This document shows, piece after piece, positions 348 to 41,752 of a DNA stretch of 64,000 nucleotides. Position 1 is the stretch's first letter, and the number at the start of each line of letters is the position of its first letter. The translations under genes were made by a program, and so were the position numbers. The notes beneath the pieces are model-generated. The model was not told the origin of the DNA. It made no database searches and saw only the letters and a list, made by a program, of their open reading frames with translations. Where the stretch lies: the NCBI GenBank assembly GCA_026874595.1, contig CM049309.1, forward strand, positions 92,092,723 to 92,156,722, written 5' to 3'. The DNA is from Sipunculus nudus (lineage: Eukaryota > Annelida > Sipuncula > Golfingiida > Sipunculidae).

Positions 348-524
348 TAATCCGCTGTGCCCCTCTGCTCAATCCAGAGTCAGGCTTGGTCAAGTGCAAC
401 GCCGCGAATTTGTATGGCTCCACCTGCCATTCTAGCTGCGACACCGGCTTTGCTATCATGGGACAGCGGACAGTGCAATGTCAACGAAATGGACAGTGGT
501 CATCAGAAATCCCTTACTGCAGAG
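348..524 (+). CDS. Exon 1 in window: CCP/sushi module
   Basis: The acceptor is cttgcag (341-347) and the donor is gtaggc at 525. The exon is 177 nt, phase 1 to 1. It starts as xIRCAPLLNPESG and contains six cysteines (IRC, VKC, STC, SSC, VQC, YC). That is the six-cysteine CCP variant seen in selectins and SVEP1, with the conserved C-x-x-G-F and G-x-W elements (CDTGF, GQW). The first codon is completed from an exon upstream of the window. Confidence 0.9.
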
Positions 525-3500
525 GTAGGCATACTCACGCACGGACACACACTGTTTTTGGCTTTTTCGTTCATTTGTTCATTATACTAATGCATCTACA
601 AGCACGTCTACTGGTGGAGTAACCGCTACTCTTTCAAATCAATAATGATTCAAATTAAAAAATTAAATTTAATATTTCAGTTTGCCGCTTTTAGACATCG
701 CAGTTTTTACTTTTAGTAGTAGATGTTCGTTTTCTTATCATGCTTTAATGGTCCTTATGATTCATCACTTTATCATCACTATTACAGTTATCACTTGCTC
801 AGACCCGGGAACTCCGTTTCACGGCAGTCGGTACTGTCACACAGTTCACACTTACGGCAGTCAGTGCGCATTCAAGTGTGATGATGGCTACAAACTGGAC
901 GGGGCCGCCCAGCTCCTGTGCACGTCAAGCGGAGATCGGCCCAGATGGAGCGCTCCTACCCCGAGCTGCAGAAGTACGTCACTTCTACTCCAGAAACAGG
1001 ACGGAACAAAGTCCCCTGATCTCCATAGGTCAAGCAACCGACAGACCAAAGTCCCCTAATCTCCATAGGTCAAGCAACCTACAGGCCAAAGTCCCCTAAT
1101 CTCCATAGGTCAAGCAACCGACAGACCAAAGTCCCCTGATCTCCATAGGTCAAGCAACCGACAGGCCAAAGTCCCCTAATCTCCATAGGTCAAGCAACCG
1201 ACAGACCAAAGTCCCCTGATCTCCATAGGTCAAGCAACCGACAGAACAAAGTCCCCTAATCTCCATAGGTCAAGCAAACGACAGGCCAAAGTCCCCTGAT
1301 CTCCATAGGTCAAGCAACCGACAGGCCAAAGTACCCTAATCTCCATAGGTCAAGCAACCGACAGACCAAAGTCCCCTGATCTCCATAGGTCAAGCAACCG
1401 ACAGGCCAAAGTCCCCTAATCTCCATAGGTCAAGCAACCGACAGACCAAAGTCCCCTGATCTCCATAGGTCAAGCAACCGACAGGCCAAAGTCCCCTGAT
1501 CTCCATAGGTCAAGCAACCGACAGACCAAAGTCCCCTAATCTCCATAGGTCAAGCAAACGACAGGCCAAAGTCCCCTGATCTCCATAGGTCAAGCAAACG
1601 ACAGGCCAAAGTCCCCTAATCTCCATAGGTCAAGCAACCGACAGGCCAAAGTCCCCTGATCTCCAAGGGTCAAGCAACCGACAGGCCAAAGTCCCCTAAT
1701 CTCCATAGGTCAAGCAACCGACAGACCAAAGTCCCCTGATCTCCATAGGTCAAGCAAACGACAGACCAAAGTCCCCTAATCTCCATAGGTCAAGCAACCG
1801 ACAGACCAAAGTCCCCTGATCTCCATAGGTCAAGCAAACGACATGCCAGAGTCCCTTGATCGCCATAGATCAAGCAATCGACAGACCAAAGTCCCCTGAT
1901 CTCCATAGGCCAAGTTAACGTATTTTAGGTCCTTTTATCACAGACCACGGATGGATACACATTTATTTCCATCAAATAAACCACTTATGGTGGAAGAAAT
2001 TTTGTTCTACATGTGTCCCGCATGTACATGAAATATTTTCGCTTCACTATTACCTATGTTTATCAAGTCGTTTTACGCGGTAGATCTGCCAAATCATATA
2101 ATCCCCTTGGAACAAATAAAGATTTACTACACGTGCTTTTCCTTGCTCAGTGTATTAATAATCAAGGACCATGATTTAACAGCCGGCAATGCGTGTACTA
2201 TTTCTTTACCGTTTTGACCAATGAAGTCTTCATTTTCTGGTTTTACCAAACTTCTTTTTGTGTTTCTCTTGCAGAAATTATCCCGCCCTCGCTGGAATTA
2301 TGTCCGGGGGACCAAGAGGTGCGAACGAGTCAGTCCCTTACGGCGGTGCCACGCCCCCGAGTGATATTCCGTACTTCCACGGGCAAAATAGCTCCGTACA
2401 CCTGCTCGCCGTTTGGTATGAAAGACCGTCATAACTTTACCATTGGTACACACAAGGTCACGTGCGAGGCCTACGATCCCTTATTTGGGCCTGGCGCTGT
2501 GACAACCTGCTCTTTTACCCTCACAGTTAAAGGTAAGTCCCGGGCCTTTGGATGCTCACAGGAATATGTAGTCCGCAGTGATTCAGTTAATGTGTTCGAT
2601 GTATAAAGTAGGTCAGTGTGTTCAGTTTTAGGAATGCGCAGTGCAAAATCGGTCAGATAGGCATACATTTGGATACTGATTTAATGTGAATTTGAACTGA
2701 ATTTGTGACCAAATGGTTATCACAATATTTTTGTACCAGTAGTATTAGTTGAAGATATAAGGTAAACACTTATGGAAAGCACATTACATATGTATGTCAT
2801 ATACATAAACAAACGTTGGCATTTTTCTTCTTGCATCGTACAACACAATTAATTGTCGCTTTTAAGAAGCTATATCTAATAAATTCATTTCATTCAGCAA
2901 ACCCATGCAGACCGTTAACTAAACCCAAGAATGGCTTCCTGCTGTGTTCCCGAGCGGATGGCGGGGGCGTCCGTCTACACGACACTCAGTGTAAACTGTT
3001 CTGCAGGAGGGGATACGCCCTGCCTAGGACGGACAACTTCATGCAACGGGATCATTTATATAAATGCAATAAAAGTGGCCATTGGTGGCCAACTGATATA
3101 ATACCTGGATGCGTAGGTAGGGATAATTCTTTGTATATTTTTAATCGACACAGGTATATATATCCATTCCACCATAAGGAATACTTTTATACTCGTTGTA
3201 AATATTCTCCTGTATGAAATAATTAAGTTGACGAGGTAATAATTAAATGCAGAAAATCTCCTATTTAATCTCTTCTTCAGTTATTAATAATGATTGATAT
3301 ACTGCTCATTAACTCGATGTTGTTTATGTGGAGTAAAGTCAGAATCCTGAAACCCTCGATTTAAACGTCATTTCTCTGTTGGCAGCGTAATTTGAAATGA
3401 ATTAAATAATAGTTTTAGTCCATGCACGTAAAAACACGTAGCTCTGAGAATGTCTAACGTAGAAAAGAATTTAAAGATTTAGTGGTGAGCACGCCTCATA

Positions 3501-6500
3501 GAAAGTAAACGAAAACATTAAAATTAGTTTCCGATTAAATCGGTGATTTCGTTTCTAGATATGATCTTATTGTTTGCAGTACCAAAGAGACCAAAAGAAC
3601 TGCAGTTACGAACAGAAATCCACTTTGAATCGTCAGACTGCAAGGGACGCGGAAAGTTCCTACCTGCATTTCAAAAATGTTTAGAACCGCACGCCCATCA
3701 TTTGAAAAGTAAATGTCAAACGTCTGGGCAACACTGCGTCTTAGAAATGCCAAGAATAGAAATATTGGACCAAGAATTGCGTCCAAGAAGACACTTACGT
3801 CATAAAAGGCGGTCACGTCACAAGCGTCGCTCACGCAATAGACATCGCACACATAGGGGGCGCTCTAGACCGAGAAGAAATAGTAAAGAGTGTATTGTTT
3901 CTTTCAAGTTAACGTTTAGCACAGAAGTGAGTGGCCACGGTGAGTGGCCGGACGAGTACCATACTGCTAAAAGTCGCTTGTATGATATGTTTGATTACTT
4001 TGAGGGGCGCCTCAGTGAAGTGGAGAGCGTCCTCAAAATGGAGTTAAGAAATGTTCATATACAAATGAAAAGAAATAGTCTCACATTTGCTCCACCAAGC
4101 AACAGGTGCCCGTTCCGGTACACCTTCAACAGGGACACGCTCATGTGTGGTGAGTAGGACTTCTGTTATCATTATACCTTAAAACTGTATGCTTACTTCC
4201 AGCGCAGCACAGCGTTTCAGACCTCTGAGGGGAAAGAGTTAAACCGTATCTTGGAGCCTTAAAGGTTCGCTATCATATCTCGTATAGGCTCCTATACCTC
4301 GACGTTTGGATAATTCGTAATTAATAATGTTACAGTAACATATATCATGTGTTTCTTCTTCTAGTTGATATTGAAAGAAATAAGCAAAGGCCAAAATGGC
4401 AAGATAATTAAAAGAAAATAAATTCTTAATTTATTGAACGTACACTTATAACAGTTTAGGAAAGAGAAAAGAATCAGTTTATAATTGAACCATTTTATGT
4501 TTTTAAGGTAGCTACGTTTAAAGGCAACGTGGTGCAATAAACACACTGGGAGATGCAAATGCTTTAATGATATTTGAGTTCTTTAATTATAATCAAATAG
4601 GAGATCTGGTCGACATTTTGTCGTTATTCACGTGAGACAACATGGCAAGGAAAAATACCTGAACGTTAACAAATAAAAAAAGACAAAGTATTTTGCATCT
4701 ACAGTCGCCAGTTGTCTGGACCGTACAAGATGTGGTGATTTCCTGAAAAGAATTCTGTGGTTTCTAAAAGAAGCGGAAGTAGTTTATTTGGTTGCTCCTT
4801 TGACCAGTGCGGTTGGCAGGTGCTTGCCGAAGGAAACCTATCATTATATGTGTGTTAGCAGGCATGGTCATAGAACAGAGGAAATGGGCATTGTTTTGAG
4901 CCATGTGATCCGTGCTTCAACCATTGCCACAGAGTAAACCGCGGGTCACGTGGTTACTTGTGGGACTTGAAAGACAAGCCCGTTGATTCGTCAGATGTTA
5001 TACCAGTCTGTGAACTATGTCACCGTTTTTCGTGCTTTATGTGCACAGCGTGTTACTAGGGCTAGTTTTTAGCTCGTACAAAGGCTATGAAAACAGACCG
5101 ACTGTGAGAAGCAGTCATCATATTTGGTATATCATTCATGTTATTTAAGTGGACCTTTTTTTAAACTCTTCGCAAAATACGGATGATTTGTAAGCAATTG
5201 ACGAGCGAGACGGGTTGCTGATGGGCTCTGATTAACTGGGAACTGTAACTTGTGCACTTCATGAACTTTTTCATTTGTTTCAGGGTCACTGCCCGGGTAA
5301 ATTAGGCAATTATTTCAGTTGCTATAAGGAAACGTTCACTTTGAAGTTAAATTTGTCTGAATCACTGGCACAGATGTGTTCAATTCCGGCACAATCCCTT
5401 GCTTTCTATTCGATCACCATATAATGAAAAAGAAACTATTTTGGAGTTTAGACGGATATATGTAATTTTTCTGTGTCAGAGATAATCCATTCTATCAACA
5501 GTCCATCCTGCTACAAGGCACGTATGGGCTTTGATAGTATTGTTATTTTTTATTTTAAAAAAATCGCCTGCCATAGGTCCACTTATAAAAGAAATCCAGA
5601 TTAATATGCACTCTCATAATATCATAACAATCATATAATAATGTGTATCTGATACATGCTGTGTTTGGTAATCCGAGTGTTTTTGTGTGTGTGTTGTCGG
5701 GGCAGTCACGTGCGGGGCGGGGACCTGGTTCAATCAGACGATTGACACGTGCGTGCCGTGTCCAGTTGGTCAGTACCAGGACGAGGAGGGACAGTACTCG
5801 TGTAAGCCCTGTCCAGCAGGAACCGCGTCCATCGAGCCGGGGGCGTCCGCCATCGAGCATTGTGTAGGTAAGATTTCGTCACCTTTACACAGTGACTTTT
5901 TATCCTGTTGTACCTTTATATCAGTAGCTACCCACGACGTGAGTAGGCGTTTTACAGATCAATGTAATACAGAGAGACGGATTATCGATGGCTTTGTCCT
6001 TTTTTCTATTTGTATTGCCGGGAACCGTGTCCATAAAGCTTGTAATAGTACATTAAGTCTTGTTAGGCACAAATGGTGCAAGTTGAACTATCTGGCATTG
6101 CTGCTGGTTTTATCCTTTGTTATTTAACCTCCACGACCGCCATTAAAACGGAATAATCTTGCAACAATAAGGAAATTGATGCGAATATTTCAATATATGA
6201 TAACCGTTTCGCTTGCCATAAAAGGTTAGATATATTACCCATAATCGTACGCCGACCAAGGGCATATATGACGAGAAGTCCTGTAAAATGTCCATGGCCA
6301 CTTGAGTCTGATATGAATGATGAGGCTGATTGTTTGTAAGTTATGAATCATTTATTGTGACGTATTCGGCTAAATACCTTTGTCACTGTCACGGAGTATA
6401 TTTTTGTTTTTCTGAATAAGATGTAAAGTATACAGTGAAATGTTAAAAAGAACCCTGAGACAATCCTTCATTCTCTTGTCGGCCTTTATCTTCGTTGACT

Positions 6501-9500
6501 GAATGTTTTCCGAGCCATTGCGCTCAATCTTTTAATACTAATAAGTGTTTCTGCAAGAATGTATAAGCTTTTTAACCCTTGGCGTTCATTGGTTCAAATT
6601 TGCCCCCCTTTTTTATATTTTTGATTGTTTGATTGTTTGCACGTATTTCTCCAACAAATTTGCAACTGGTGCTGGCATCTGGTGGAGATAATATTAGACA
6701 GGTTGATTTTGAGGAAAGGTATATATGATTTAATAAACGCAATTTAATTTGTTGAATTTTCGTCATTTAAAATAATTCAAAGGTTAAATTAATAAAAATC
6801 CGGCGTTTGGTGTCCAACCTCGCAGTACCGTCTCTTATTGCAACTGCTCATGAATAACAGCAATTAATAAAATTAAATATGCATTTGTATAGCAGAAAGA
6901 GCGGTATTATGTAGGAAGATATCTGTTTCATGTAACGATTTAGTAATCTGGACTTGGAATGCGGGACTGAATCTGGTGGTATTATTGTATATTGAGGATA
7001 ACTGTCTGTAGATCAACACATTATCTTCACAATAATTGTTTTACTTGATGTTTATAAATGGCCTGTTGTATAAAATAACGCTCCTTTGCCGTGTCCAGCA
7101 CCAAAAAAATTTTCATATCCAGGCACGTTTGAGGAATACTGGATAGACTAGCATATAAATATTTAAGGTTGTAACTGCAGTTACACAATCATTTTGCCCA
7201 CGAATTGCGTTAATGAACCTCTGATAGGAAACCTACTTCAAGAAAAGATACACCTGGTCCCAATCCTCTGAAAGTAAAATTTCCCAGGCCCCTTTATTCT
7301 CAAATTTGAAAGTCAGATCAGCGTCTGACGAGTAAGTACCGCTGCCGGCGCTTTGACCAATTCGGGAGCCTGCATGTGGTCAAGTCAGGTCGGGAATTGA
7401 ATCATTTTGGTAACTTATACGGATGTATAAAATCTATGAATAATTTTGATTGCTGCTTCAAGGGATAGATCAAGAACAAGCAGCCATGAATATCTACAGG
7501 GTAGGAACAATACCGCATAGACAGAGGGTACTGACGGACTCATAAACACACGTGACCCAGTGATTATTTCAACCTTCTGTCCAAGTTGGACGAAGAGCAT
7601 ATTTTTAAGTCCCCTCCCACCGGTACAGAGGGCTGATAACCGGGTTATGATTTTACTACATGGGTCTTTTATTGACTACAAACCATCGACAAGAATTGTT
7701 CCTTAGTTTCAATATTGTCTGCGCTTGATCTCCATAACGGCCGATACTCTTCCATCGCTGTTTGCGTTAAATCTCCATTACGGCTGATACTCCTCCGTCA
7801 CTGTTTGCGTTTGATCTCCATTACGGCTGATATTCTTCTGTTGCTGTTTGCATTAGATCTCCATTTCGGCTGATATTCTTCCGTTGAAGTTTGCGTTTGA
7901 TCTCAATTATGGCTGATAATCTTCCATCGCTGATTGTGTTTGATCTCTATTACGGCTGATACCTTTCCGTTGCTGTTTGCGTTGATCTCCATTACGGCTG
8001 ATATTCTTCCGTTGCTGTTTATGTTTGATCTCTTTTACGGCTGATATTCTTCCATCGCTGTTTGTATTTGATCTCGATACGGCTGATACCTTTCCGTTGC
8101 TGTTTGCGTTGATCTCCATTACGGCTGATATTCTTCCGTTGCTGTTTATGTTTGATCTCCTTTACGGCTGATATTCTTCCATCGCTGTTTGTATTTGATC
8201 TCGATACGGCTGATACCTTTCCGTTGCTGTTTGCGTTGATCTCCATTACGGCTGATATTCTTCCGTTGCTGTTTATGTTTGATCTCCTTTACGGCTGATA
8301 TTCTTCCATCGCTGTTTGTATTTGATCTCCATACGGCTAATACCTTTCCGTTGATCTCCATTACGGCTGATACTCTTCGGTTGCTGTTTACATTTGATCA
8401 CCTTTACGGCTGATATTCTTCCATCGCTGTTTGTATTTGATCTCCATACGGCTAATACCTTTCCGTTGATCTCCATTACGGCTGATACTCTTCGGTTGCT
8501 GTTTACATTTGATCACCTTTACGGCTGATATTCTTCCATCGCTGTTTGTATTTGATCTCCATACGGCTAATACCTTTCCGTTGATCTCCATTACGGCTGA
8601 TACTCTTCGGTTGCTGTTTACATTTGATCACCTTTACGGCTGATATTCTTCCATCGCTGTTTGTATTTGATCTCCATACGGCTAATACCTTTCCGTTGAT
8701 CTCCATTACGGCTGATACTCTTCGGTTGCTGTTTACATTTGATCTCCTTTACGGCTGATATTCTTCCATCGCTGTTTGTATTTGATCTCCATACGGCTGA
8801 TACCTTTCCGTTGCTGTTTGCGTTGATCTCCATTACGGCTGATACTCTTCCGTTGCTGTTTGCGTTGATCTCCATTACGGCTGATACTCTTCCGTTACTG
8901 TTTACGTTTGATCTCCTTTACCGCTGATATTCTTTCATCGCTGTTTGTATTTGATCTCCATTACGGCTGATACTCTTCCGTTGCTGTTTGCGTTGATTCC
9001 ATTACGGCTGATACTCTTCCGTTGCTGTTTACGTTTGATCTCCTTTACGGCTGATATTCTTTCATCGCTGTTTGTATTTGATCTCCATTACGGCTGATAC
9101 TCTTCCGTTGCTGTTTGCGTTGATTCCATTACGGCTGATACTCTTCCGTTGCTGTTTACGTTTGATCTCCTTTACGGCTGATATTCTTTCATCGCTGTTT
9201 GCGTTTGATCTCCATTACCGCTGATATTCATCCATCCCTGTTTGCATTGGATCTCACTCACGGCTGATACCCTTCCATCAATGTTTGTGCTAGATCTCCA
9301 TTATGGCTGATATTCTTACATCGATGTTTGCGCCGAACATCCCCTACAACTGATTTTCCAAGAGTGACTTCGGTCAGAGTAACAGTCACGGTTGCCTTGA
9401 GAAACATCATTTTATATCACATGATGCATTTAGGATCAGCGGTTAAGGTAATACAGCCTCACTAAATTCAAAAATGAATGGATGAATGGACCTGCCTGTA

Positions 9501-12500
9501 GTTGTGGGAGTTCTCGTGCGATCACCTTGTCATCACAGAATTCTTCCTGTCTGTCTGCCTGGTTTCTTAGTTTTTAGCTGAGCTGACTGTAAGATATCTG
9601 AGCTAAAGCAATCACACTTTGTCCGTCGTCCGTCCGGTTATCCGGCTGTTAACAGGGCAAAAATCGTAACCGTTAAATCTAGAAACTTCTAACTGTACAT
9701 CCAAGGTGGTCCTAAAGAAATCTCCTTGGAAACTTTAAATTAGGTCATGGTGACGCATATTTTGTGACCTACGGGCTGAATACATGATTTTGGGAACCCA
9801 TACAGTCAGATTTGGCACAATTTGTATCCATTTGGCCTGGAATCCTCTAACGCAATATGAAGGGAGGTCCTATGCAAACGTCCTTGGAAACATGAAATAA
9901 GTTCATTGTGGCCTATATTCTTCGACCTACAGGAAATAGATGTCATATGAGCATCCTGAATGTCAGATGGGCCCAAATTTATCTGTCAGGCCTAGAATAT
10001 TCTAACTCAATATCAAGAGAGGTTCTAGACAAATCTCCTTTGAAATCTAAAATTGGGTCATGGTGACCTATAATCTGCGTCCTACGAGCCGAAAACATCA
10101 TTTCAAACAACCCAGACAGTCATATGGGCAACATATTGATGCTGTTAGGCCTGAAATCATCTAAGGTAATCTGAGGTCATGGGCAGATGTATGTGGAAAC
10201 ATTAAATTAGGTCACTGTGATCTATAATCTGTGAGCTATAGGAAAAAGGCATCATTTAAGCACCTTGAATATCAGATGGGCACAAATTAAATTGTATCCA
10301 TTAGGCCTAGAATCTTCCAACGCAACATCCAGGGAGGTTCTAGGCACATCTCTTTGGAAACCTGAAATAAGGTCATGGAGACCTAAAAGGTTATATACTG
10401 CGGGCTATGAACCAAGTATATTGATTTGAGCACCAAGATAGCAGTGTACAAATCTGTTTTCCTTGAAACCTTCTGTTGCAAAATACAGGGAGGTCCTTGG
10501 CAAATCTCATTCGAATCCTGAAAATTAGGTCAGTTAATTCTTATAATACATGTCGAAAACAAAATACAAAATTTTATTTTCCGTCCGTTTTACAACATAG
10601 TAACATTAGCCATATAGGCTATTCTGACAGATGATATAAAACATTAATGAAAGAAATGAGCACAAAGTCATATTCAGCTGAGCGTCATGGCCCATGGGCC
10701 ACTACGCCCACTCGTTTTAACTTTTCAGAAAACAAGTTTTGTTTAAGAATTACCTATAATACTCTCATTTTATATATATATATATATGAAGAAAAACAAC
10801 TGTAAATTCACTACAGACTGTTTCACGGGATGCGACCTGATCCTCATGTGAATGTTGTATATGTATATATATATATATGTGATTTAAAGTTTGTCCCTAC
10901 TTATCTTGGTGCAGAATCATTTCTGTTTGAACATGAAAAGTCCTGCCCATGAGATGAGAAAATAAGAATGGTTTACCAGTCTGGGTGGTTGTCTTCTACT
11001 CAGAGAATCTGGTGAAGGTACAATAGCGCTTTATAAAGCATGTATAATCCGCTGTTTTCACGGCCCAAATGGTCTTGATTACATATTTAGATCAAAGAGA
11101 GCTTTTTCCAAAGTATATCAACCTTGTTTGTATTGTAATTTATAAATAGTGCATAAGTACAGGCCCAGCCGTGCGAGGGTGTCATTTACATGGAGGTACA
11201 TTATACATACGCACTTGCAGCCTTTTTTATATCATTCTATTACCGTCTATACTGGGATTCGTTTTCCCCTTTTTACACCAGTGTATTGACATGGTTTGTG
11301 ACTCTTGGTGAATAACCGCATAACAGTATTCTATCCAACAAAAAGCAGGGATTCTTAAGCGGTATTCTACAGGATCTAAAGTCATTCTTTGCGGTTTGGG
11401 ATCAAGTAATCTAATGAAGGAAAATAATACGGCCCGGCGTTTTATTAAAAGCACAGTTACACTGGGTCACCTGTTCTTTTATTTTGATGTGTTAAACGTA
11501 TTGCACCCTAGAACCCATAACATGTAGTATTACCGCCAAGACTCTGCTCAGTCTTTGAGGGAACTATGTGAAGAACATTTGGATTCAATGGAGGGCATAT
11601 TTTCTCATACTGATCCTATAAATAAAGCAGGAGCGTGCCATTCTGTGGCAGTTGACAGGGGTCAACAAGTACAACTGACACCAAAGATTTCCTTACACCT
11701 GGTTGCTATAGGGCTGTCATTCAGCTGGTTTCATCTGCTGCTCCAGCTCCAGACAGCCCTGGCTTGGCGTCAGTTATAAAGTATTCGGCAAGTGAAGGCT
11801 GAACTGAGACTGTGTAGATAACTTCACAACCATGTGCAAAGAGCAAAGTATCCTGTGCTGTTATGTCCGCCCATTCATGATTTACTCATTTTGAAAATGT
11901 CTATGGAAGACACGAGAGACCTGTGTGATAAAATGGTTGTGTCTGATATGCTATATCATGATAATCTGAATGAACCGGAAGCCTTAACATCGTAAATTTG
12001 GAAACTCATAGTCCTTTTTGTTTAATTAACAGAATCTCTGTAAAGACTGAAGAGCCTTTACTTACTACTTATCATGTTAACGTTTATTATCCTTTCTGAC
12101 TCGGCGTTACTGATTTGTATAAATTTAGTTTTATTTTACATTTCATTTTGAACCCAATAGATCTAAGCAAGTCCCTAAGTAACGAGAGCGGTGGATCCGT
12201 ATGGGTTCTCTTTCTCAGCAAATATTTTAATAACTTCTCTGTAAACCGAAGAACATGGTGTCATGTTCTTAACGTTAAGGACGTGTAATTGAAAAATCCG
12301 GTCTTGTACTATGGCCCTTCCCTAAATTTTCACCATTTCATAATAAACAATTTAAAGAGTCTTGTGAGATTAATAAAATGCATTTTGGTAAAATGTAACA
12401 AGGATCAGTCGGAAATTTTCTGATAGAAATAACTGCGTAAAAAGAAGTTTATGAAATTTCCATGTGTCAAGAAAACTATATCCACATGTTATCAGAACCG

Positions 12501-15422
12501 AGCTCTCTAGGACAGACTGCGCTGAAAACTTCATATCTTTTCAATACTCTTTTACAAATATAGAAAAAAAAAATCAATATTATGAAATTAACAGTTTTAA
12601 CATATATAATTATTTAAATAAACGTGAGTACAATCCCAGGTATTCCCGGCATGAGAATGTACCAGGTATTTCGGTCTTTCTGTCTCCGATTTGTGTTAAA
12701 GCAGATGTTTATGGTCCGGGGAAGAGTAACGCCACCATTGACATGGCACCGAGTCACCAAGGTAACCCCTTCTGTTTTTCTGATACCTTCACAAATACGC
12801 AACAAAGCAGAACAGGTCACACGCTGGTTCATGCCCATCCATAACGGCGGCATCGGGTTTCAGGCTGGATTGAATAAATGGTTTTGTTTTAACTTGTAGA
12901 CTTACTGCTCATTATTATTTAAAGAATGCACCTGTCATTATAAACATGTTTTCCAATATTTCAAGATCAAACCGTTTTTAAGAGTAAGATAAATACCCAT
13001 CCTCTCCAGAAAACGAATGAAAAACTCCTGCCCTGCTAGCCGCCTGCAGCGACGAAACGTCTTGCACCGTTAACGGACGACTGTTTCGTCGCCTCCCCAT
13101 ATATAGGGATAAGTGGTATTTGACCACGATACGATCGTATTTTCCGAAAAAGACCGTTTTATTTTCAGTTTCACGGATGGGGTGACATTAAAACTTCTTC
13201 ACTATGACAAAAGTATCTTATTTTCAATTCAACTGCAAAATATTAGCAACTGTAAGTGTATTTTACTTTAGTTATTGTGTATTTTGGTCTAAGAAGACAC
13301 GGGTCGTTCTGCCCATAACCGCCATGACAGAAGCAGTTAGAATGTATATGTAGCGGTGACAATGTTATGTGTACTGGTCCAGTTTTGTACGAGTTAAAGA
13401 CTTAATTAAGCAGGGTATTTATGCAATTAGCTTTCCATAACAGAATGTTGTCTTTAAAAAATGAGATTCTCGAGTTACTGAGGGGTTTTCTCCCTTTATA
13501 GACCAAGATCATACACAGGTTAGAACCCTACCCAAGTGCATACATGGGGTGGTAACTATAAAATGTACTCTCAGATATATCTAACATTTTATAGTCACCC
13601 TTGGTGGCTACTGCCCTGCATGCTCAGCGTTTAAACAGGACGAAGTAAGGTACAGACGATACTGAGCCAAACTCTCAAAAGGTGCTGGTAATTCTGAATA
13701 ATTAAAGCCTTGGACGAAGGCCCTATCTATAAGCTATTAATATATTTTACATGTATATTCTATTAAACAGAACTAAGGAGAGTAAAGCATAGGTCTTTAT
13801 AACGTTTGCTGTTTGAGAGTTCAAAAAATGAAAAAAATAGTTAGTACCACATTGTTGTATTATCATCTGGCAGCAAAACTGCTGCGGGCGTTTTGGATTT
13901 TCATAAGCTTTCTTTGATGGCCGTACAAGTTTTTATTTCTTGCTGGGGGGCTTAATCGTTCCTACCTCGTTATATTTTATATGTAAAACTTGGGCAGGAT
14001 GTGGCGGTCAGAAAAGAGCGGACTGTTGGCTCCGGACGGTGGGTCTTTGATGTAGAGCTGTGGGTTAGACATTCCCATCACATAACACATCGAATATTCC
14101 GTTAACCTCCGCCAGACCCCACCCCGCGTTGTTCTGTTTTCCCTGATACAGCCGCGGACCCACACTGTATTACACACCAGCATGGCCCAATGAAATCCGG
14201 TTATTACATTTTATATGTACCTGGCCCCACCCGAGATGACTTGGGAGGTATGCCTGCATCTCTAAAGATAGCGCCATGTTGCCGCAAGATGGATGGCAGC
14301 TTTTGCCTTGAACCGGCGGGCTCGTCTCACGCTGGTACGTGAGAAGTTCGGCCCGAGTAACCACTTGTTTAGATCAAGTTGTAATCAGCACTAAATACAA
14401 CATGTTTCGTCTTAATCCCGCCGAGAGCTGTTACGGGTCCCTCGTGGGCTAGTCATTATTTAAAGCGACAGGTGTTGATTTGGTTGCTAGGTTGGCAGTG
14501 TCAGCCGGTTTAACTGAGCAAACCAACTCACAAGAATAGAATTTGTTTTTGTTTCTCTGCCTCACTCGGTGCCCAGGAGCTGACATATATCACATTGTCT
14601 TTTGTAGTACCCTCTAGATCATATTAAATTTATTTTCCAAAGTTTTCTCTGAGAGACGTTAGATAAACCGATATGATTAATAATTTCATAAACCAAAGTC
14701 AAAATTTTTGTGACTCGTGTGACTTAAAGCGGTATAGTTTGGCATGCACGAACGTGGGAGGAAGAAGAAGAATTATAAGAAAGGAAGCCAAGGGCGCCCA
14801 GTTCAAGAAATCCCTGAAGAATGGGGACTTGCTTGTTAATTATAACAGATAACGTGTTTATGATAACGATAACGTGATTAATTCATGTTAATATTGATTA
14901 TTTAGACAAATTAATTACACAGTATCACAGACAATGGGCGAGGAATCGCACGTCCTTAGAAATACCCTCCATGAATGTTTCACAAGAATTTGCTTGATAT
15001 ATAAAGCCATCGATCCTCCAAACGTGCTTGTGCCCTCTTAGATATGGATTGGTTAACATTAAGTGCATCTCTCTACGTCTGAACCAAAATTAAAGCCCCA
15101 ATATTTACAGGGCGTAGCCAGGGGGTGTCGCAGCCCCCCCCCCCTTTCCGAATTTATCATAAATAAATTATAAACACAACTTGTGTAATGACCCCGCGCA
15201 TACATCCTAAATATATTTAATTAATAACTGACATATTATTTACACATTTTCACCCATGCTGTGCAAACTATTTCTATCGTTTTACGTATAAACATTGTTA
15301 CAAGAATATTGATGTTCCAGGCTCCTTCTGGGCAGAATATAAAATTTTCTTGGATTTCTATCTCGACCGACTCTTTCTCCTTCTTTCTGTCCGACTCTGT
15401 CTCTCTGCCTGTCTCTCTTTCC

Positions 15423-15468
<46 letters not shown>

Positions 15469-18400
15469 GCGGATATATCTTCAGTCAAACCTATATTCAA
15501 CCCCCGACGCTCAACCCCCATTCCGTAAATCCGACCCCCTCCCCCCCCCCCCCTGATATTTAGGAATATCACCTCCTGAACTCATTCAACTAGTTCTTGC
15601 CTCGTGTCACACCTGTTGCAGTCTTGTCTAGTACCATCGGAGATTTTTTAACATCGGAAGTCCAACGGATGGTCCACAATAACCTCTCAGATTCAGTTTT
15701 AATTTCAACGGGGATTTGTGGGGGTCACTGGGTCCTGACTCCCAAATCAACGACACTGAGCATTTAAAATACCTTGTCATATTTATATTCATCTCCCCAA
15801 TTCAGCTAATATTGTTGAACGGTTTGTGTAAATAATACGTGGTATCAACAACACATTGCAACAATTATGTGTATGCAGTGAGGTGACATATGAAGTTGGG
15901 CCACTCTTTATGGCAGATATAAAATGACAAGAAAAATGTCAGCCTGGGTAAGATAGCATTATTTTTGTCCCCGCCATTGGATCATGTAGGTGCGACCAAC
16001 TTTTGTATAAACTTCTCCTGAACGCCTCAGTGAAAATTAAAGACGCCCAGTTTAAGAGTGCTTGGGTGTTTTCTTGACTATTTCTCAATCCACTTCTTTA
16101 TGTAATTGAAATACACTTGTCGACAAGGCATTCTGCACAATACATAAAACGGGTTTAGGCCCCCAGAGGTATTTAGCATAAAAACAGGTAATTGTCTTGC
16201 TTTTAAGCTTTCAGGATTAATTTAATAGTCGATAAATTCGTTGAGACCTCCGCACAATTGCCTCTAGAAGTTCTTTCATCTTCAAAGCGCCGTGTCAAAC
16301 AAATAAATCAAAAGTGTCTATTTGATTATCTGAATCTGTTGCATTATTTTATGTAAGGTGGACCCCTATGTTATTCCCACTCTCCGTAAGTGCCTGGACA
16401 AAATGAGCTAAAGATCGTTACGGTGACGTAAAATGAGACCCGAGAGATGGCAGATGACAAAACAAATATATATGCCAGTTAGAAGAAAATAATACAATGC
16501 AGTCCCCTTTTAATTTAGATGTACATGTATGTGAGTGTGCGGGCGTTTTTTGTTTTTTTTAAAGTTGGGAGTGGGGTGTGAATGGTAAATACGCCACCGA
16601 GAATTTTCAAAGAAGTTTGCGCAAATTTCTGATTGGTCCCAGCCGGGCAAAGACGTCCGTTAAGGGTAGAGTACAACGTGTACTACGGTTCTACCTTAGT
16701 GCCAGTAGTTGAATCACTCTCCTTGACCTCCGGGTCAAAACGATCTTTTTTGTTGTACTACTTGAGTTCCTTATCAGCATCAGGTTTTCGTATTTGTAAA
16801 AACTGTTGGCGTCAATGTGCCGAGCTAATCAAACATCCAGTTAAAGGTTAAATATATAGTGATAAAGCTTGTTAAAGTAATCACTGTTCAAACTGTTTGG
16901 TGTAAGACGGCCTTCCCAATCCCGGTCATGTTGTGTGTTTTACGTCATACAGTAACAGCAGCCATCAATCCCGGTCATTTTGTGTGTGTTACGTCATACA
17001 GTAACAACAGCCATCAATCCCGGTCATGTTGTGTATGTTACGTCATACAGTAACAACAGCCACCAATCCCGGTCATGTTGAGTGTGTTACGTCATACAGT
17101 AACAACAGCCACCAATGCCGGTCATGTTCTGTGTGTTACGTCATACAGTAACAACAGCCACCAAGCCCGCTCATGTTGTGTGTGTTACGTCATACAGTAA
17201 CAACAGCCACCAATCCCGGACATGTTGAGTGTGTTACGTCATACAGTAACAGCAGCCACCAATCCCTGTCATGTTGTGTGTGTTACGTCATATAGTAACA
17301 ACAGCCACCAATCCCGGTCATGTTGTGTGTGTTACGTCATAACAGTAACAAAAGCCACCAATCCCGGTCATGTTGTGTGTGTTACGTCATATAGTAACAA
17401 CAGCCACCAATCCCGGTCATGTTGTGTGTGTTACGTCATACAGTAACAACAGCCACCAAGCCCCCTCATGTAGTGTGTGTTACGTCATACAGTAACAACA
17501 GCCACTAAGCCCGCTCCTGTTGTGTGTGTTACGTCATACAGTAACAGCAGCCACCTGATGTCGGTGAGGGATGTGCGTTTAATATTAGCCATCATGGGTA
17601 ACACTTGGCCCAGTGCGGGTTGTAATTTATATGAGTGTCAGCTCAGAACGGATTATGTTGCCAGAGACATTAATATATGTAAGGTTATTAATAAAGTTAT
17701 GTATGAGTTTTTCTTTCAGGAACAGCAGCTGTCTTATACATGGAACCGCCCGAGGACACCTGTATTATATGAACACCTCTATCATGAGGACACCTGTATT
17801 ATATGAACACCTGTATTATATGAACACCTGTATTATATGAACACCTGACACAGGGCAGCTGAATTCTTTACCTTTCCCCCAGCTTACGTTATATATAACA
17901 TTCCCCTGGACAGCTGTATTATATGTAGAGTTTCTGTCAGGACAGCACTATTATTTATATAACACCCCAAAACAGCTTTGTTATTACAATGACACATAAC
18001 ATCTCTCTGAGAGCAATCTGTATAATAAGTACAGCATAACGTACGCTTTCATTGTAAAGGCAATTTGATTCTTTTATATGTGTTATAATTCTTCTTCATG
18101 CGTGACCTGTATTACGTTACAAGTTTCTCTTGATATTTTTGCTCTTTTCTAAATGCATCAGATAAATTATATCTTTCTAAAAAATATGAAATAGCAAGTT
18201 ATCATCCATTTTCTACCTGGACGTAAACTGAAGATTCCCGTGAATTCCTAAAAGCACATGTCTTATTTATACCTAATTATTTTTAGGCCTTTCGCTTCGG
18301 TCATATCCATTACTGAAAGAAGATGTACATTTATAAAAATGCTTACAGATCATCAAAGTATTTTTATTATTTCATTTACTGGGTTGCAGGAATCGTTTGG

Positions 18401-19291
18401 GAGTTAATTGTTAAACTTGTCACGGTTGTTTTTGCTATATATAAGAACAGATTAATCACGTGACCGGAAAGGACCCAGTTTGAGGCTGAAAACGTACAGA
18501 CACGCGCCTCCTTCGGAGGAAAACATGTTGCAAGTGATATGTGTGCCTGGTTATCACATCTTGTAACTCTCCCTCACATTACGGCGAGGACCGCTTTACT
18601 TGGTTTAATGGTAGGACAAAAAGAGGTAGAGAAGTAGGAGTTGCCGGAAAGTTTTCATCGGTTTATTTCCCACGGGCGTTTCAAGGGTGAACGCTTTATT
18701 CCACACACGTAATTTATCAAAACAGATATCTGTAAACAAGTACCAGAGGCTTTGTGACTGACACCAGAATTAAGCGCTAATAATTATTTGTTTGTTTATT
18801 TTGGCAGATATAGATGAGTGCTTGTCGTCGCCATGTCAGAACGGAGGACGCTGTGAGAACGGTCGGGCCCGTTTCGTCTGTCATTGCCTGCCAGGGTCTA
18901 TAGGTGAGATCTTTGTCATATCGTCTGTATAAAACATCTACCTCATTCAACATGCACCGTAAATAGCAGTAGTTGTACATTTATCTGTTGACTAAACATG
19001 GGATATATTTACTTGAAGAGTGACAAAGTGATGATCTTTGACGATCAAAGAGCCGCTTGTACGTGTTGTCCAGTGGCGGATCCATAGGGGGCGCCCGCGG
19101 CGTTGAGCTCTAAAAGATCTCATTTGATCTATTTCTTTTCCTATTTAATCGTGATTAATTTTCACTTTCATATTTCTTTTCTGTTTGATCATTAAGTTAT
19201 CCACAGTTTATTACTTTCTTATTCTTAATGAACGGCAGTGTGATTAAGACAACTATTTTTATAATTAGAGAGGGAGCCTTTTCCTGATTAC

Positions 19292-19337
<46 letters not shown>

Positions 19338-19714
19338 ATAAATATATATATATATATATATAATTTATATATATATATATATATATATTATAAACAAATT
19401 AAATGCATTATTTAAGAACTTAGTTTTCCCATCAACCGCCAACCAAGTATTAGCGCCCCCCCCCCCCCCTCTCGGTTCTTAAATTTCTGGATCCGCCACT
19501 GCTGTCTTTGGACTTTGCTGTCACGGGTAAACCGATCATGGTGACTCCATGTTCCCTCATCACAAGACACACTGATCATGGATTGACAGCTGTCCAAACT
19601 AGATATGCAAAATTGCATTCTATTTTAGTAAAACACAGAGGTTAAGCTTCAAATTTTGAATTTTTGTCATTGAAAGAAAGAATTTTAATTTTATTCAGTC
19701 GAAGCACTTCAATA

Positions 19715-19783
<69 letters not shown>

Positions 19784-22700
19784 ATAACCCACACCCACAT
19801 GCATAATATGTTAACCTGTTCACAATGACAACAGAAAAAGGAAGGGTATTTTCATTTTATTTTTAGGCTGGGCCTTAATGAAGTTTTTCTCGTATTCCCA
19901 CATATAGATATAATTATGTGTATAAAAGTATTTAGTGGCTTTCAGTTTAATCGTTGTCTCAGAATATTGCTGTCCAGGATGCCTACATTGGTGTTTGATT
20001 TGTATACAAGTTGTCATGTGATGGTGTCTTTTTCAATCCTTACTTGATATCTTGATCAACGGAATATAGAGGAGAAAAAACAACATAGGTCTGGATCCAT
20101 ATTATATGTGCTCCCATGATGATGTGCTATAGTTTATATACGGGTTGAATACACGAGGGCGCTGCATGCTAACAGCTTGAACTGAGCGCTTCTTTTATTG
20201 AGTGTATGGTATCTCACAATGTCCGATTGAGTTAAGGTATGATAGGCCGTGCGTGAATGTTAGGTCAAAACCACGATTGAGTCATGCACTTCAGATCAAT
20301 GTCATTAGCCAGGTCTGCTCGCTGCTCTCCGTATACAGGCAATAAACCAATAAAATAGAATGGCTTACACAGTTATATGTAATACACGATGTTATGTTCT
20401 CATCGCTGGGGATTAAACCTTGGAATTATGGAGAAAGGTGTTCTACACAGTAAACCAAAAGTAATAGGGGTCCAAACCACAAACCTGATATTTCAATAAA
20501 ATTAAGACTACGAGTTAACATAATTTTGTGAAAGGTGCAAGGCTAAGCTACTTCCTACATCCTGAGAGGTATATTTTTATAATCTGAAATTAAACAGGGA
20601 TGTACTGCAATATGTTTAACCCACCGATCCGTGTCGGAAGCTCAGTTGCGGCATAATATCCATTGATCTTCCAAAAAAAAAGAGGAAAGTTTGCAAATTG
20701 TTTTTGAAAAGAGAAACATTCGGCTGCAAAAAGAATTTAGGAACTGTCTTAGAATTAGTTGGAAATACACTGGACTATAAAGTGATTCATAGCAAAGGGA
20801 ATTTACATAACCTGACCCAACAGCAAAACCCTGCTATCAGTAACATTACGCCTACGTACAGCTACAAGACCACCAGCAAATATAAAAGTCACTTTTCCAG
20901 ACAGGTTTTCGTCTGGTATCTGTACCTGCCTGGACTGTGGCTGCCACTGCAGAGCTGTTAAGAGTTTTCTTTTCAACGTTTAACAGGGTGGCTATTTCTT
21001 GTTATTGCTGTTATAGGGAGTAGCCGTGAATGACAGGCACTTCAAACGGTTAGCTTGTGTTACAGGGCAAAGAAAACAAAAATCATGTTTTGACAACGGG
21101 AAAAGTAATCTCATATTTCGTAATGCAGACAGTAACAAGATCATTCTGTTGTCTTTAACAGGCTAACATTTGAAAAGCCGATCCCGTGTAGTTTAAAACA
21201 AATTGCCTGCGGATAACAAAATAGGTAAAACAGTATCTACCTTAGCTTGAAAAACTTAACCAAAAATTCACCATGAAATCGAAAAAAGTTGTACTATTAG
21301 TGATAAAACTTTTGTATTAATGTTACAGTAACTGGGTGGCGCCGGTTGATGCAGGATTAGTCACGGGTGTATCATGCCCGGTAATCCCCAGAAGTTGAGG
21401 GGTGAGAGGTGTTATATTGGCGGCCACTTCTTCTGGGTCTTTGTGGTGAAACCCCAGCCAGACAGGTTGGAGATAAACCTGTTGATAGCGGCCCGGTGCT
21501 TTAGTCCTGGCCATAGGTTGAGGAGTGTGATACTTGTGAGATTTTTTTTCTGGGTCTGAGACGAGACTGGTACATAGATTACAGGAAATCACAAGTCCGT
21601 GGCAGAAAAAGGTCCCGCCGCCCGGAGCCGCCATATTTCAGCTTCTCGGAAAGCTCAGGGCCGCATGCCAAGAACACTTGACTGGCTGTGGCCGCCTGGT
21701 GGGTGTGCGTGTTTTTTGTGTGTCTGTGCCAGGAAGCTCATCTCCCTCTGTCTGCTCTCCTTCAGGTGCTCACTGCGAGCAATCAGTCTACGACTGCAGC
21801 ATGCATTCATGTCAGAACGGGGGGACATGTATCCCGGCAGGCAAACACAACTATACCTGCAGATGTCCAGAAAAGTTCTCTGGCTTCCGCTGCCATCTTC
21901 CGTCAGGTAGGTGAACTAAATGAACTATTGTTTGAATGCTTGCTTTCAACTGGACAGTTGACAGGCTATGAAATGTTAGTAAGTGCTTCCTGATTTACTT
22001 TTCTTGAATTAATTTAAAATACTCTAATAACAAAGGCGTCCTTCAGGTCAAATAACCATGCCTCAAGGACTTATCTTTAGGGGATTTAGCGTATCATTTA
22101 CCCGTTGTTTCAATCAAAACAATGGTTAATTCATCATCGAATGTGAAGTATTTTTGTCTGACTGGTAATGTTCTATGGTATAGACATAATGGTTTAGTTG
22201 CAGATAACTTAGTGCTTAACCGGTTATTTCCTACATAACTATTTTATGTTTTTCTTCTCGTATAAACAGTTGATGGGGGATGGAGTCAGTGGAGCGAATG
22301 GACCACGTGCACCAAGTCATGCGCAGTGGGCGTCCGTCAGCGGAACCGGACGTGTGATCACCCAGCGCCCTCTTACGGCGGCCAGGATTGCAGTGGCGAG
22401 CCCAGGCAGATTGAAACGTGCAACATCCAGCCTTGCCCAAGTAGGTCTCTAAGTTAACTCGCTGTGCCAGGCTGTTCTTATGGGTTTTTGTTAAAAACAC
22501 CCTTGCTTGAAAAGGCTAGAATGGACACGACAATGTCTTCTTTATTTTCTTAAAATTAACTGTCAGTTTGCAAACACACCTAAAATAAATGTATGCCAAA
22601 ACGTTTCTTTGACTCAACTCCTTCACACTGTAATAGAATCAGCGGTTCTGGATATTAAAAATAGAAGTGTATTTCTTAGCTTGAGGCAATCTGAATACTC

Positions 22701-25700
22701 GTGACGATTTAACAGTTCTATCATATTTCTTCGAAAACGCTGATATTTTACTACCAGCAGTTGAACATATACTATTATTACATACAGTGGCATCATTCTT
22801 CTGAAGCATAAAACGAGTTTTATGGACTTGTGGGGGAGTGAATAAATTTATCTGATACAGAGATGGGAGATGCTGACTCGTATGGAAGATTTGGGTAGTA
22901 TCAAATTTAAACTGCAGAATAGGTTTTGCGATAGTTGCAGACACGTGGCTGACTAGTGGTAGAGTTCCCAGGTATAGATCAATATGATGACTTATCTTGT
23001 CGATATGTGTGTGATATGTGTGTGTTCATGTGTATATGTCTCCTGCATATGCAAGGGAGACAGAAAGAGGTACATATGTTAAGAGGGTAAACTTTGTTAA
23101 TGTTCATGAATACCAATGTCGTAAGGACAAACCTGTATGTAAGTGGTCAGGTGGTGAAGAGTTACTCATTTTTCTCTGTTCTTTGTATATTGTTATTATA
23201 TGTTGCCTTTTGAGCCAACACTATTATACTTTTGATTGTAACCCTTCAGTACAGGAGTAATAAAGATCATCAATCAATCATACCTAAAGAAGTGTTTGAT
23301 GGATTGCTTTGTGCGATCGTTCAGTTATACTAACCACGTGTTCCTTGGGATGGTGTATGCGATCGTTCAGTCATACTAACCACGTGTTCCTTGGGATGGT
23401 GTGTGCGATCGTTCAGTCATACTAACCGCGTGTTTCTTGGGATGGTGTGTGCGGTCGTTCAGCCATACCAACCACGTATTCTATGGGATGGTCCGTGCGA
23501 TCCTTCAGTCATACATACCACGTGTTCCTTGAGATGGTGTGTGCGATCGTTCAGTTATACTAACCACGTGTTCCTTGGGATGGTGTGTGCGATCGTTCAG
23601 TCATACTAACCACGTGTTCCTTGGGATGGTTTGTGCCATCGTTCAGTTATACTAACCACGTGTTCCTTGGGATGGTGTGTGCGATCGTTCAGTCATACTA
23701 ACCACGTGTTCCTTAGGATGGTTTGTGCCATCGTTCAGTTATACTAACCACGTGTTCCTTGGGATGGTTTGTGCGATCGTTTAGTCATACTAACCGCGTG
23801 TTCCTTGGGATTGTTTGTGCGATCGTTTAGTCATACTAACCAGGTGTTCCTTCGGATGGTTTGTGCGATCGTTCAGTTATACTAACCACGTGTTCCTTTG
23901 GATGGTTTGTGCAAGGCTTTACATTTTTCTGTGGTTTCAGAGTGTAAGACTCTGAGACGTCCGTACCAGGGGAGGATGGAGTGTCGCTATGACGACAAGG
24001 AGGAACTCAATAAATGCACCATAAGCTGTCCGGACGGCTACGGCTTCACGGGGCCCGTATTGGAGGAGTACACGTGTGGACCTAACACATCCTACCTGTG
24101 GCCACACGAATCTCCAGATAACCCAAGATGTACACTCCCTGCTTGCATGCGTGAGTATTACCTGTATACTCGCATTATATAATGTCATAAGCATAAATAG
24201 TGTAAAAATGTGTGTTTTATTTACCACTGTGTGCTGCAGTTGACTACAATTGACTGGATGATAAGTTTATAATAAAGCATAGGGTGTCATTTTGAACTGT
24301 TTTTAGGTATTTCTTCTAACTCGTGAGGGTGTGTGTGAGTGTCAAACACCGATTTGTATACAATAAAAGTATAGAATGTTCATCATATGGACTCAAGATG
24401 ACACAAATATCGTTGTGCCTGAAACATATTTTTTACTCATGATGTTACATTAAAGAATTGCTTAACATAGGAGATTCAGCTATCCCCCGGCATTTGCATC
24501 TTTTTTTTACAATTACATTTAACCGATATAATTCGTTCTTCTCATATTTTATTTCACTTTCTCATACCTTGTTTATTATTGTTATATTTTTTGAATTCAT
24601 CAACAGGGCTAGGCGATGCGTCCGAATCCCAGTACACCTTTACGACCAATTTCTCTGTTCCGTGCAATACCGGTGACCTCGAGTCTCACATACGTCATCA
24701 GGTCCGCAAGCGGGCGACGGAAATGACGCGACACCTCCACTGCCTTCGGCGAGGCACGTGCGAACTCAAGACTCCACTTGTGATTGGCTGCAGCAATCGA
24801 CGCAAACGCTCCATACACGCAAACAGTACTATGACTGAAAATGTTGGTGTACAAGTATCTCTGGTGTACCACAGGAATTACAACCGGGGATCGGGTGAGT
24901 GTTATATAGTTTAATAATAGTGGTCACCATGTGATTCGCGAAAAGTGAAAACTGCTTATGTCTGGGGACAGGCAGTTTGGGTATTCAATTTTAAAATTGA
25001 TAATAAAACTATAAGCATCATATCAATTCCTAGTTTAATGAAGGAACCATATAAAGATGAGGCACCCCGCTGGCAAAAGTCCCAGATAAGGGACATTTTG
25101 TAATGTCATACTACTGGACTAAAGCCGAACAGCATACCTAAATATAATTTTTACAAATATGACGTCATGATGATTACCATAGTGCCACAGATGCCCTGAG
25201 TAACCCACATGACTTGTGTCACCCCATTGCAACATAGTCCATATTAACTTGAGACTGGTGTCAAATCATGTAAGTATCTTATGGTTTACTACCTGTGCAT
25301 AGTATATTGTGGCCAAGCAGCTTATGGTCTTTCTAAGTTTCCATTTAATCAGAGCTTATCCTCTAAATGGCAGTTACATGTCTCGCCATGCCCTGGAACC
25401 CGCGTATGATCAAGAGCAGTCAGATGGTATGGTAGCGCCGCCTACTTCTTCGTGAAAACCTGATTTCACAGACTGATACGACTTGTTACGTTGAACGCAG
25501 TAACATTTTCTTTGTGGTAACGCTATCGTAATTATAATCATGTATTATGGACAATCTAACACGCAGTGCATTATAGGTTTTTATGACATTTGCAGCGTCA
25601 ACCCGTGAGGTGAAGGCCACTTCCCATGAAATCTCCCGCCTCGGCCAAGCCCTCATGGCCAGAGTGTCTTCTGGCGACATCTACCTCATTCTGGGCAATA

Positions 25701-28700
25701 AAAAGGTGGTCGTCGAGCGCAACAGGACAGACGCCAAGAGCGAGATTCTTTGTCCCAAGGGCATGAAGCAGGCATACAACAAGGAGTTCTGCGGTAGGTG
25801 TACACAGCACAAAGGGCTTGGTTCTGCACCCGGTTGTAGGTACATGGGACGTTTTGTCACACTGAGCTTCACTATAGAACCCATAGCAAATAAAATGACA
25901 GACGACCCGTAATGTGGTGAAATAGTTGTTTTGACGGTGGTACCTTAATGACTCATCAGCGCCGTCTGGTATTCATTTGTTGAAACAAAATAAAACCTCC
26001 CAGATAATTCCCAAGAAATCCCTTACAAAAACAGATGGTGAAATTTGATCAGTGATAAACTTAAAACTGATACCAGCATACATTATAATTAATGTGAACA
26101 TGGACATTTTATTGCAGAACTGTTTCATGCATGAAAACGAGATGGTGTTGATGAGCAGTTCGGGTACCTCTGTAAATAAATATTATTACTGTTTAAAAGT
26201 AGCACAGTATAGTAATCGTATTTGAATTCCAGCCTAGTAGTGATAATTAGAATAAATATTTTAGAGATATTTTAGAGGCTTTTGGTCTACATTTCGATGT
26301 TGAATCTGTTGAAGGTTATTCAGATAAAAAGGAAATAGTTATGATGGTTAGCATTGTATCATTTACCTTTGCTGCGTTTGCATTGATTGTTAATAGTTTT
26401 GATCACGTTTGTAAACTTAATATACCAAGAGCCTTAATGAAATCATTAAATCAAGTCTCCAAAACAGTCACTTAGTGTGACTTTATTCAGGATTCTTGTT
26501 CTTTATTCCCGATTTACACTTGATTACTGATGATTGAAGGGCAGTAAATTTTAGAAATTTATTTAATAATTATAATATTTAATATATTTAATGTCAGCTC
26601 TAAATGCTACATTTAATAACCGTTGATTTTAAAGCAGTATCACTAGGTCCTTCTTATACATGTTGATTATCTGGAGGTTTTGTATTTAGTAATATGTTGG
26701 GAGCACGTAGATAGTCGAGTCATTAGAGTAACATTCAGGCGGGACTAGCACTTGGTGCCACGTAACGTTTACATCAGCCTTTCCCGTACTCATCACTTGC
26801 TTCCCGATGTACCACGCATGCTTACACCCGGATCGCAGTGCGTGTGCACGCTTTATACGTGGGTCTGGTTTCTTGCAGTGGCCTGCAGCCCGGGTACGAA
26901 GTTCGAAAACCGGCTACGAGACTGCAGTCTGTGCGAGGTGGGTAGCTTCCAGCCCGAAACCGGACAGTTGTCATGTGTGCCCTGTCCTCCCGGTCACACC
27001 ACGCTGGGCAGGGGCGCCACCTCGCGACAGGATTGTTGTAAGTCACGCGGCACGGTCATGCGCGGTGTTGGTGGCGTTGGCTGGACCTTGTGAGCTTACT
27101 TTGTTGCGGGTGGCGCTAAACTGGATTCGACCTTTCAGTGTTGTTCCCAGGTGGCGCTGTGTACAAAGCTTTTGGCCTCCAAACATTTCTTCCTGTGTAA
27201 CACGTCAGCTATGTTTCTTCAGATCTTTGCAAGTCCTTTGCTTCAAGTCTACTGACACTTAACATATTGTCCTACGTTCTGACATTGTCCACGCCCTGAC
27301 AGCTGGCTTGGGTGTAGTGTTGTACCACGGACAGGCTTTATTCAAAGTCTTCTGTCTAATCGGAATTCATTCTTTTGCTTGGAGTGTAGCTGCTCTTCAT
27401 ACTTTCTTTGCGTTCAGTGTCGTTGTTCAGACGCTCCTATCACCCAGAACACATGTCGCTTTTTGCTCTAACATAATGCACCCATTTGCCTGTCTAACGC
27501 TGAATCGGTGTCAATGCACGATTTTATATATTCACTGTGACTGAAAGATGATTATAAATGAAATCCCAAGTTGTATGGATTTTTCAAACGCCAGGCCGCC
27601 CAGTAAGAACGGAGTTGACTTGAGCATGTTTTTGGAAGTAATCTAATGAACTCTGCCATCTGCCGTGTCGTGTTATGTATATACCTGCTGCCTCTACTGT
27701 CCATAATTACCCGACGAAGATACATAAAGCTTCATCTGCTTGAGTAACTTCCTGAATCCTTCCAGACCACTCTGACTACCATTAAATTCTAATTAAGCTA
27801 AAAAAAATCCTTTGATGTTAGATTGATTGACATCCCTTAAAGAGAAACATGACTTTCACTATTAGTGTTGCATATTGTTTCTTTTGTGTAATTGCAGATT
27901 ATGCCGGAACGCTGCCTCCCGTGATATCTACGCAATTCTATGTTAATACAGGTATGTTTGTGTATTTATTTTAAGAAGCTACAGTCGGCTTAGCCTAAAC
28001 AGATACTGAATATTCGATCGTATTCTAGTATCGTGGCTTATTGTACAAAGCACTAATTAGCTGTAGCTAACGTAATCCCGGAGAGGTTACCAGCATGCGT
28101 GAAAGAAAGCCGCATCTCCATAGCATCGACTTAGACCCCATCTCATACATAATGCATCGGGTAAGCTGGCCAGCCAGCCATAGGTTTCTCTCGGGATGTT
28201 GGGAATAACAGTTGTAAGGAACCACAGCAAGAATATATGATGTTAGCAACAAGACAACCGAATGTGAAATAAAGAAAGCTATCAGAGGACTCTCCCCGAA
28301 TCCTGTTATGGTGACTCACCTTGTAACAGGTAATGAATCCGTCCATGTAGCTGACCTTGTAACAGGTAATGAACCCGGCAATGATACTCACTCGATCCAT
28401 GATAGTACGGAATTCCGCATCCAGATGTTAGCACCAGAGGCTACTCATTTTGATAAAATAAAAAAAAATATAGTCCCTATCTGTATCAGAATAAAATCTA
28501 TGCCTCAGTTCTTTCCACAAACTTGTATGGGGTTTACTTGAGAAAGAATGTGCATGCATGTGCACAGATAAATAGACTGACTTGAATACAAAACATCTTG
28601 TCTGAACTGTAATAACTTGGACTGAAGAACTATATATACTATGTAGTACTTTCAGTTTTCAATTTAAAGTGGTTAGATGCATTGACAGTTTTTGTCAGCT

Positions 28701-41675: not shown

Positions 41676-41752
41676 CTGTTTGGCAAAGTCTCACCATTAA
41701 GTATGTAGAGCGCTCATCCTGGTTGGGAGTCGACCATGACAATCTTACCGCC

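Follow-up and report, generated by a model that had tools for sequence, protein, structure and literature searches.

Polydom/SVEP1 has been linked to lymphatic development and vascular disease. Polydom is cut in the region that separates a CCP from the GCC2 repeats. As reported, Polydom is cleaved on secretion, giving an N-terminal piece of 115 kD and a C-terminal one of 270 kD (PMC10281526), and a figure of PMC9932102 marks a putative cleavage site; the parts of the polydom literature available to us offered no explanation of how this cleavage works. Polydom/SVEP1 is the closest described family to a gene that we analysed in Sipunculus nudus (assembly GCA_026874595.1, contig CM049309.1, positions 92,092,723 to 92,156,722 of the forward strand). 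The whole stretch of 64,000 nucleotides is called the window here, and all coordinates refer to it. The gene seems to encode a polydom-like protein, probably membrane-anchored, in which a core block of CCP, spacer and GCC2 is present twice and both spacers carry furin-type basic sites.

Like polydom/SVEP1, this extracellular protein combines Sushi, EGF and GCC2/STT2R-type domains, with a HYR-like domain among them, but it differs in its doubled core and probable transmembrane segment, and the present model is without pentraxin or a long Sushi tail ahead of the anchor; canonical polydom/SVEP1 is secreted, whereas the product studied here is, judging from its sequence, probably anchored in the membrane. 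The polydom-like proteins of Nematostella have a common EGF-Sushi-HYR-TKE structure without vWFA and pentraxin, and some carry TSP1 repeats (PMC12549020). Here, too, Sushi and TKE (GCC2-type) pass Pfam and TSP1 is present, with the HYR-like domain at 16.0 bits against a cut-off of 21.7; however, EGF is listed before Sushi in Nematostella and follows the first GCC2 in our gene. The original prediction for this locus, which knew of no described family with such a layout, was too strong in this respect, because the Nematostella proteins already combine EGF, Sushi, HYR, TKE and, in some cases, TSP1. In the portion of that source available to us, no doubled core and no membrane anchor are mentioned for them, and among the matches listed, the accessible polydom literature holds no description of the two together. 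SRPX2, which has three Sushi and one HYR only, in the order Sushi 1, Sushi 2, HYR, Sushi 3 (PMC9352485), resembles the region that opens block 1, where the order Sushi-Sushi-HYR-Sushi also occurs, but no spacer, GCC2 or membrane anchor is mentioned in the part of that source available.

The gene model comprises 13 exons on the + strand (348-27037) and a probable anchor exon (29239-29338); the 5' part of the gene, where an N-terminal vWFA domain like that of canonical polydom/SVEP1 would be encoded, falls outside the window. Candidate exons were located via reading frames and splice sites and then fixed by demanding AG/GT borders with phase 1 on either side; all 13 have such borders and a phase 1-1 solution, phase having been a selection criterion. 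The spliced product of the 14 exons reads as a single uninterrupted frame, 977 residues long and open at both ends, with the order CCP-CCP-HYR-CCP-spacer1-GCC2-EGF-EGF-TSP1-CCP-spacer2-GCC2-TM. As had been predicted, the CCP, spacer, GCC2 block occurs twice (2898-5867 and 23941-27037) with EGF, EGF and TSP1 in between, and the phase 1-1 exon model confirms that spacer 1 is encoded by one exon and that a single intron divides spacer 2. The features are as follows; Pfam cut-offs are 20.7 bits for Sushi, 21.7 for HYR and 23.1 for Ephrin_rec_like.

348..524, + strand: CCP/Sushi a exon, six cysteines; Pfam Sushi 39.4 bits
788..973, + strand: CCP/Sushi b exon; Pfam Sushi 35.2 bits
2275..2532, + strand: HYR-like domain exon; Pfam HYR 16.0 bits, under the cut-off
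2898..3116, + strand: CCP c exon, start of block 1, six cysteines; Sushi 13.3 bits, under the cut-off
3580..4149, + strand: spacer 1 exon; predicted strand-helix-strand, then an Arg-rich loop holding four R-X-[KR]-R sites, then strand-helix-strand and a Cys tail
3780..3878, + strand: first to last R-X-[KR]-R motif of spacer 1; motif codons start at 3780, 3798, 3816 and 3867
5706..5867, + strand: GCC2/GCC3 (Ephrin_rec_like) 1 exon; 54.8 bits
18808..18903, + strand: exon for the first part of EGF 1, with a DIDEC start
21766..21906, + strand: exon for the end of EGF 1 and EGF 2; Pfam EGF 48.2 bits over the two EGFs jointly, in two stretches
22270..22440, + strand: TSP1 repeat exon; Pfam TSP_1 55.8 bits
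23941..24150, + strand: CCP d exon, start of block 2, seven cysteines; Sushi 13.7 bits, under the cut-off
24607..24894, + strand: first-part exon of spacer 2; predicted strand-helix-strand, RRKRS loop, strand
24798..24812, + strand: RRKRS furin-type site of spacer 2
25596..25793, + strand: second-part exon of spacer 2; helix, strand (by crude propensity only), Cys tail
26879..27037, + strand: GCC2/GCC3 (Ephrin_rec_like) 2 exon; 58.0 bits
29239..29338, + strand: probable membrane-anchor exon, beginning in phase 1 and ending in phase 2; TTTTGCAG acceptor, CAG|GTGAGC donor, encodes VVPIVMGLWLVLVVVVLAAVCFRCRS; coding score 3.6

In the exact 977-residue product, Ephrin_rec_like (86.1 bits, two stretches), Sushi (56.0 bits, two stretches), TSP_1 (48.5 bits) and EGF (29.7 bits, two stretches) are above the Pfam cut-offs. 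Taken alone, GCC2-1 and GCC2-2 each exceed theirs, as do CCP a and CCP b; CCP c, CCP d and the HYR-like domain (about 16 bits) lie below it and were called with the help of cysteine pattern and position. Pfam lists 13 families for the product and pentraxin is not one of them, only two Sushi stretches exceed the cut-off and there is no long C-terminal Sushi array; scans for Cys-rich frames and phase-matched exons yielded no further extracellular modules 3' of 27037 among the matches listed. In the PDB, GCC2-1 matches thyroglobulin, a mastigoneme protein and ELAPOR1 (7 distinct sequences, E<=0.01), which agrees with the name STT2R for the polydom repeats. Both CCP d and spacer 1 have an odd cysteine count, seven each.

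The exon directly following GCC2-2 in the gene model encodes a hydrophobic run with a basic end, which makes it the probable membrane anchor; its donor was placed by eye. Of the phase-1 candidates retained from three stretches (100, 103 and 82), no other locus combined a hydrophobic 19-mer above 1.7 with a positive coding score. A membrane protein had been predicted for a gene ending at 27037, and the claim is strengthened by an anchor exon beyond that end, although the coding score of this exon is low. The exon scan found no convincing candidate for a cytoplasmic exon past the anchor. A candidate exon at 41539-41803 (score 21.9), considered as lying downstream of the anchor, was set aside by eye as repeat-like.

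To compare the two blocks, we aligned the exact spliced letters of their modules globally against 2000 shuffles. GCC2-1 and GCC2-2 are identical at 22/53 positions (z 15.8, with shuffles and not unrelated GCC2 domains as the baseline), and for these domains duplication appears well supported. For the CCPs it appears moderately supported: CCP d is closest to CCP c (z 6.1, versus 4.7 to CCP a and 4.5 to CCP b), while CCP a against CCP b gives z 12.2 and CCP b against CCP c gives z 3.9. BLASTP of whole block against whole block aligned 92 columns with 34% identity (E 3.7e-14, exact spliced letters) from the late spacer through GCC2, and this match is carried by GCC2; a longer BLASTP alignment extends into the basic stretches out of the expected structural register and was dropped as a sign of spacer homology. 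At the DNA level, blastn between the blocks gave two short matches, one of 20 bases (E 0.03) and one of 26 bases (E 0.36), so the duplication, if real, is old. The exon phases fit a duplication of symmetric exons. The block duplication put forward in the original prediction is therefore upheld for GCC2, less strongly for the CCPs and by the phases, but not by the sequences of the spacers.

Spacer 1 and spacer 2 showed no significant similarity in shuffled alignments (exact letters; z -0.7 for the N halves and 0.4 for the C halves), in an anchored test or with MAFFT, which bears out the strong divergence already noted for them. All five R-X-[KR]-R furin-type sites of the 977-residue product are confined to the spacers, four in spacer 1 and one, RRKRS, in spacer 2, so the basic site predicted for each spacer is indeed there. 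Ahead of it stand four cysteines per spacer (residues 20, 33, 45 and 52 of spacer 1; 19, 45, 51 and 61 of spacer 2), not three as had been claimed, and their spacing differs between the spacers. The CP...CG ending ascribed to both spacers likewise had to be corrected, since the G of CG is read-through into the donor site; in the spliced product, the junctions with GCC2 read ...LMC-VTCG... and ...EFC-VACS.... Spacer 1 has a basic, low-complexity loop, with 42 K/R in its 190 residues. One of its cysteines lies in the predicted first helix and one directly past the basic loop, and these could bridge a cut. Four Pfam queries spanning both spacers returned 0 families up to E 10, in a search whose filters discard most weak hits; one chance-level Pfam row (E 0.87) came from the reading frame of spacer 1, and NCBIfam gave one chance-level match for the spacers (E 0.081). 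A common origin of the spacers, not shown by their sequences, would rest on their position, on the confinement of the furin-type sites to them and on the order of their predicted elements.

This order comes from single-sequence AlphaFold2 models of low confidence (mean pLDDT 52.5 for spacer 1). Both models have strand-helix-strand, the basic loop and a strand; that of spacer 1 goes on to the complete ferredoxin-like order of strand-helix-strand twice, and that of spacer 2 reaches the third strand only. The basic sites fall in or at the edge of the predicted strand 2-strand 3 loop in both. Of the profile search and structure prediction suggested at the outset, the former gave no Pfam match and the latter the same element order. 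A crude secondary-structure propensity also returned the expected order for spacer 2, with one extra helix in the second half, but such evidence carries little weight.

SEA domains have a ferredoxin-like fold that is cut between strands 2 and 3, and a region of GPR126 that furin cuts proved to be such a domain; the human GPR126 furin site maps to the strand 2-strand 3 loop, as in Notch2, and the cut pieces resist separation (PMC6954182). SEA-like domains have also been discussed as proteolytic switches, and that of Notch, too, is without an autoproteolytic site (PMC6586460). The spacers resemble SEA and SEA-like domains (Notch HD, GPR126, mucins) in that their basic sites fall at the corresponding place in the predicted element order. 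They differ in that neither matches the Pfam SEA model in the four queries up to E 10, the autoproteolytic GSVVV motif is missing from the 977-residue product, and two copies stand distant from the membrane instead of one near it. By analogy, the spacers may parallel the formerly unassigned furin-cut region of GPR126, and on the predicted order of elements we hypothesize that they are SEA-like split domains.

Our favoured explanation, to which we give a rough probability of 0.47, is that the exons belong to a single gene, whose product is a membrane-anchored polydom-like protein with a doubled CCP, spacer, GCC2 core, the spacers being furin-cut split domains. The doubling of the core block would go back to an ancient duplication of symmetric exons in phase 1-1, and the product would be a single-pass membrane-anchored protein. 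Each spacer would be a small split domain, with strand-helix-strand halves joined by a basic furin-type loop. We infer that furin-type convertases would cut both loops during secretion, that the halves of each cut domain would be held by their shared sheet, as in cut SEA domains, and that the mature ectodomain would be a chain of non-covalently held pieces, releasable by ligand or force.

A possible, if doubtful, alternative is a plain polydom-like protein with a doubled CCP-GCC2 layout, whose spacers are mostly disordered, protease-sensitive linkers of no particular fold, in which furin simply separates the pieces. The low model confidence, the strongly basic, low-complexity loop of spacer 1 and profile matches no better than chance level point this way, but the two models agree in the order of their long, regular helices and strands and in placing the break at the basic site, and four cysteines lie in the first half of each spacer. 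We consider it rather unlikely that the spacers are of separate origin and that exon shuffling brought each independently to its place between CCP and GCC2: they lack significant similarity, their exon structure and cysteine positions differ, and CCP c is nearer CCP a (z 9.4) than CCP d, yet both sit at the same location between related domains, with the same predicted element order and the basic site at the same point. It is also improbable that two adjacent genes were read as one, the first ending after GCC2-1 and the second beginning before the EGF exon at 18808. The gene model comes from genomic sequence alone, the gap 5867-18808 measures 12.9 kb, and the best phase-1 candidate within it is a terminal-type exon (14116-14342) that scores 16.0 versus 12.3 for the EGF exon; nevertheless, phase 1-1 is kept on both sides and a single open frame runs across. 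The points in favour of these alternatives weigh against the favoured explanation, as do the missing spacer similarity, the low coding score of the anchor exon and the propensity results, in which strand-helix-strand also appeared in 592/3000 and 970/3000 shuffles of the two halves of spacer 2 and the first half of spacer 1 was all helix. With exact spliced letters, the comparisons of the CCPs and of the spacers became weaker, and because of this we lowered our confidence in the membrane-anchored, split-domain protein and slightly raised two of the alternatives.

Elsewhere in the window, an intronless rhodopsin-type GPCR reading frame lies at 44463-45542 on the - strand (Pfam 7tm_1, E 5e-16). 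Minisatellite arrays were seen at 1000-1914, 7716-9332, 16916-17555, 23310-23912, 38360-38918, 48047-50508 and 58799-62138, several of them within introns of the polydom-like gene; the largest has a 34-bp unit in 99 copies, and in the array at 7716-9332 one 22-base stretch occurs 12 times. A dispersed repeat is seemingly common to about 31900-33000 and 54700-56000, which have similar translated reading frames, and the latter holds tandem units of 145-436 bp.

As for the family, we tentatively propose, while holding it doubtful, that the CCP-GCC2 region of polydom/SVEP1-type proteins is an unrecognised furin-cut SEA-like domain, that polydoms may be Notch-like heterodimers separable by force or ligand, and that the product of the present gene may be their membrane-anchored variant, carrying two of these switches one after the other. 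Should the cut region be SEA-like, the two polydom pieces may hold together until pulling or binding parts them; and, if true, the membrane-anchored form with two SEA-like domains would join the receptors thought to act as proteolytic switches.
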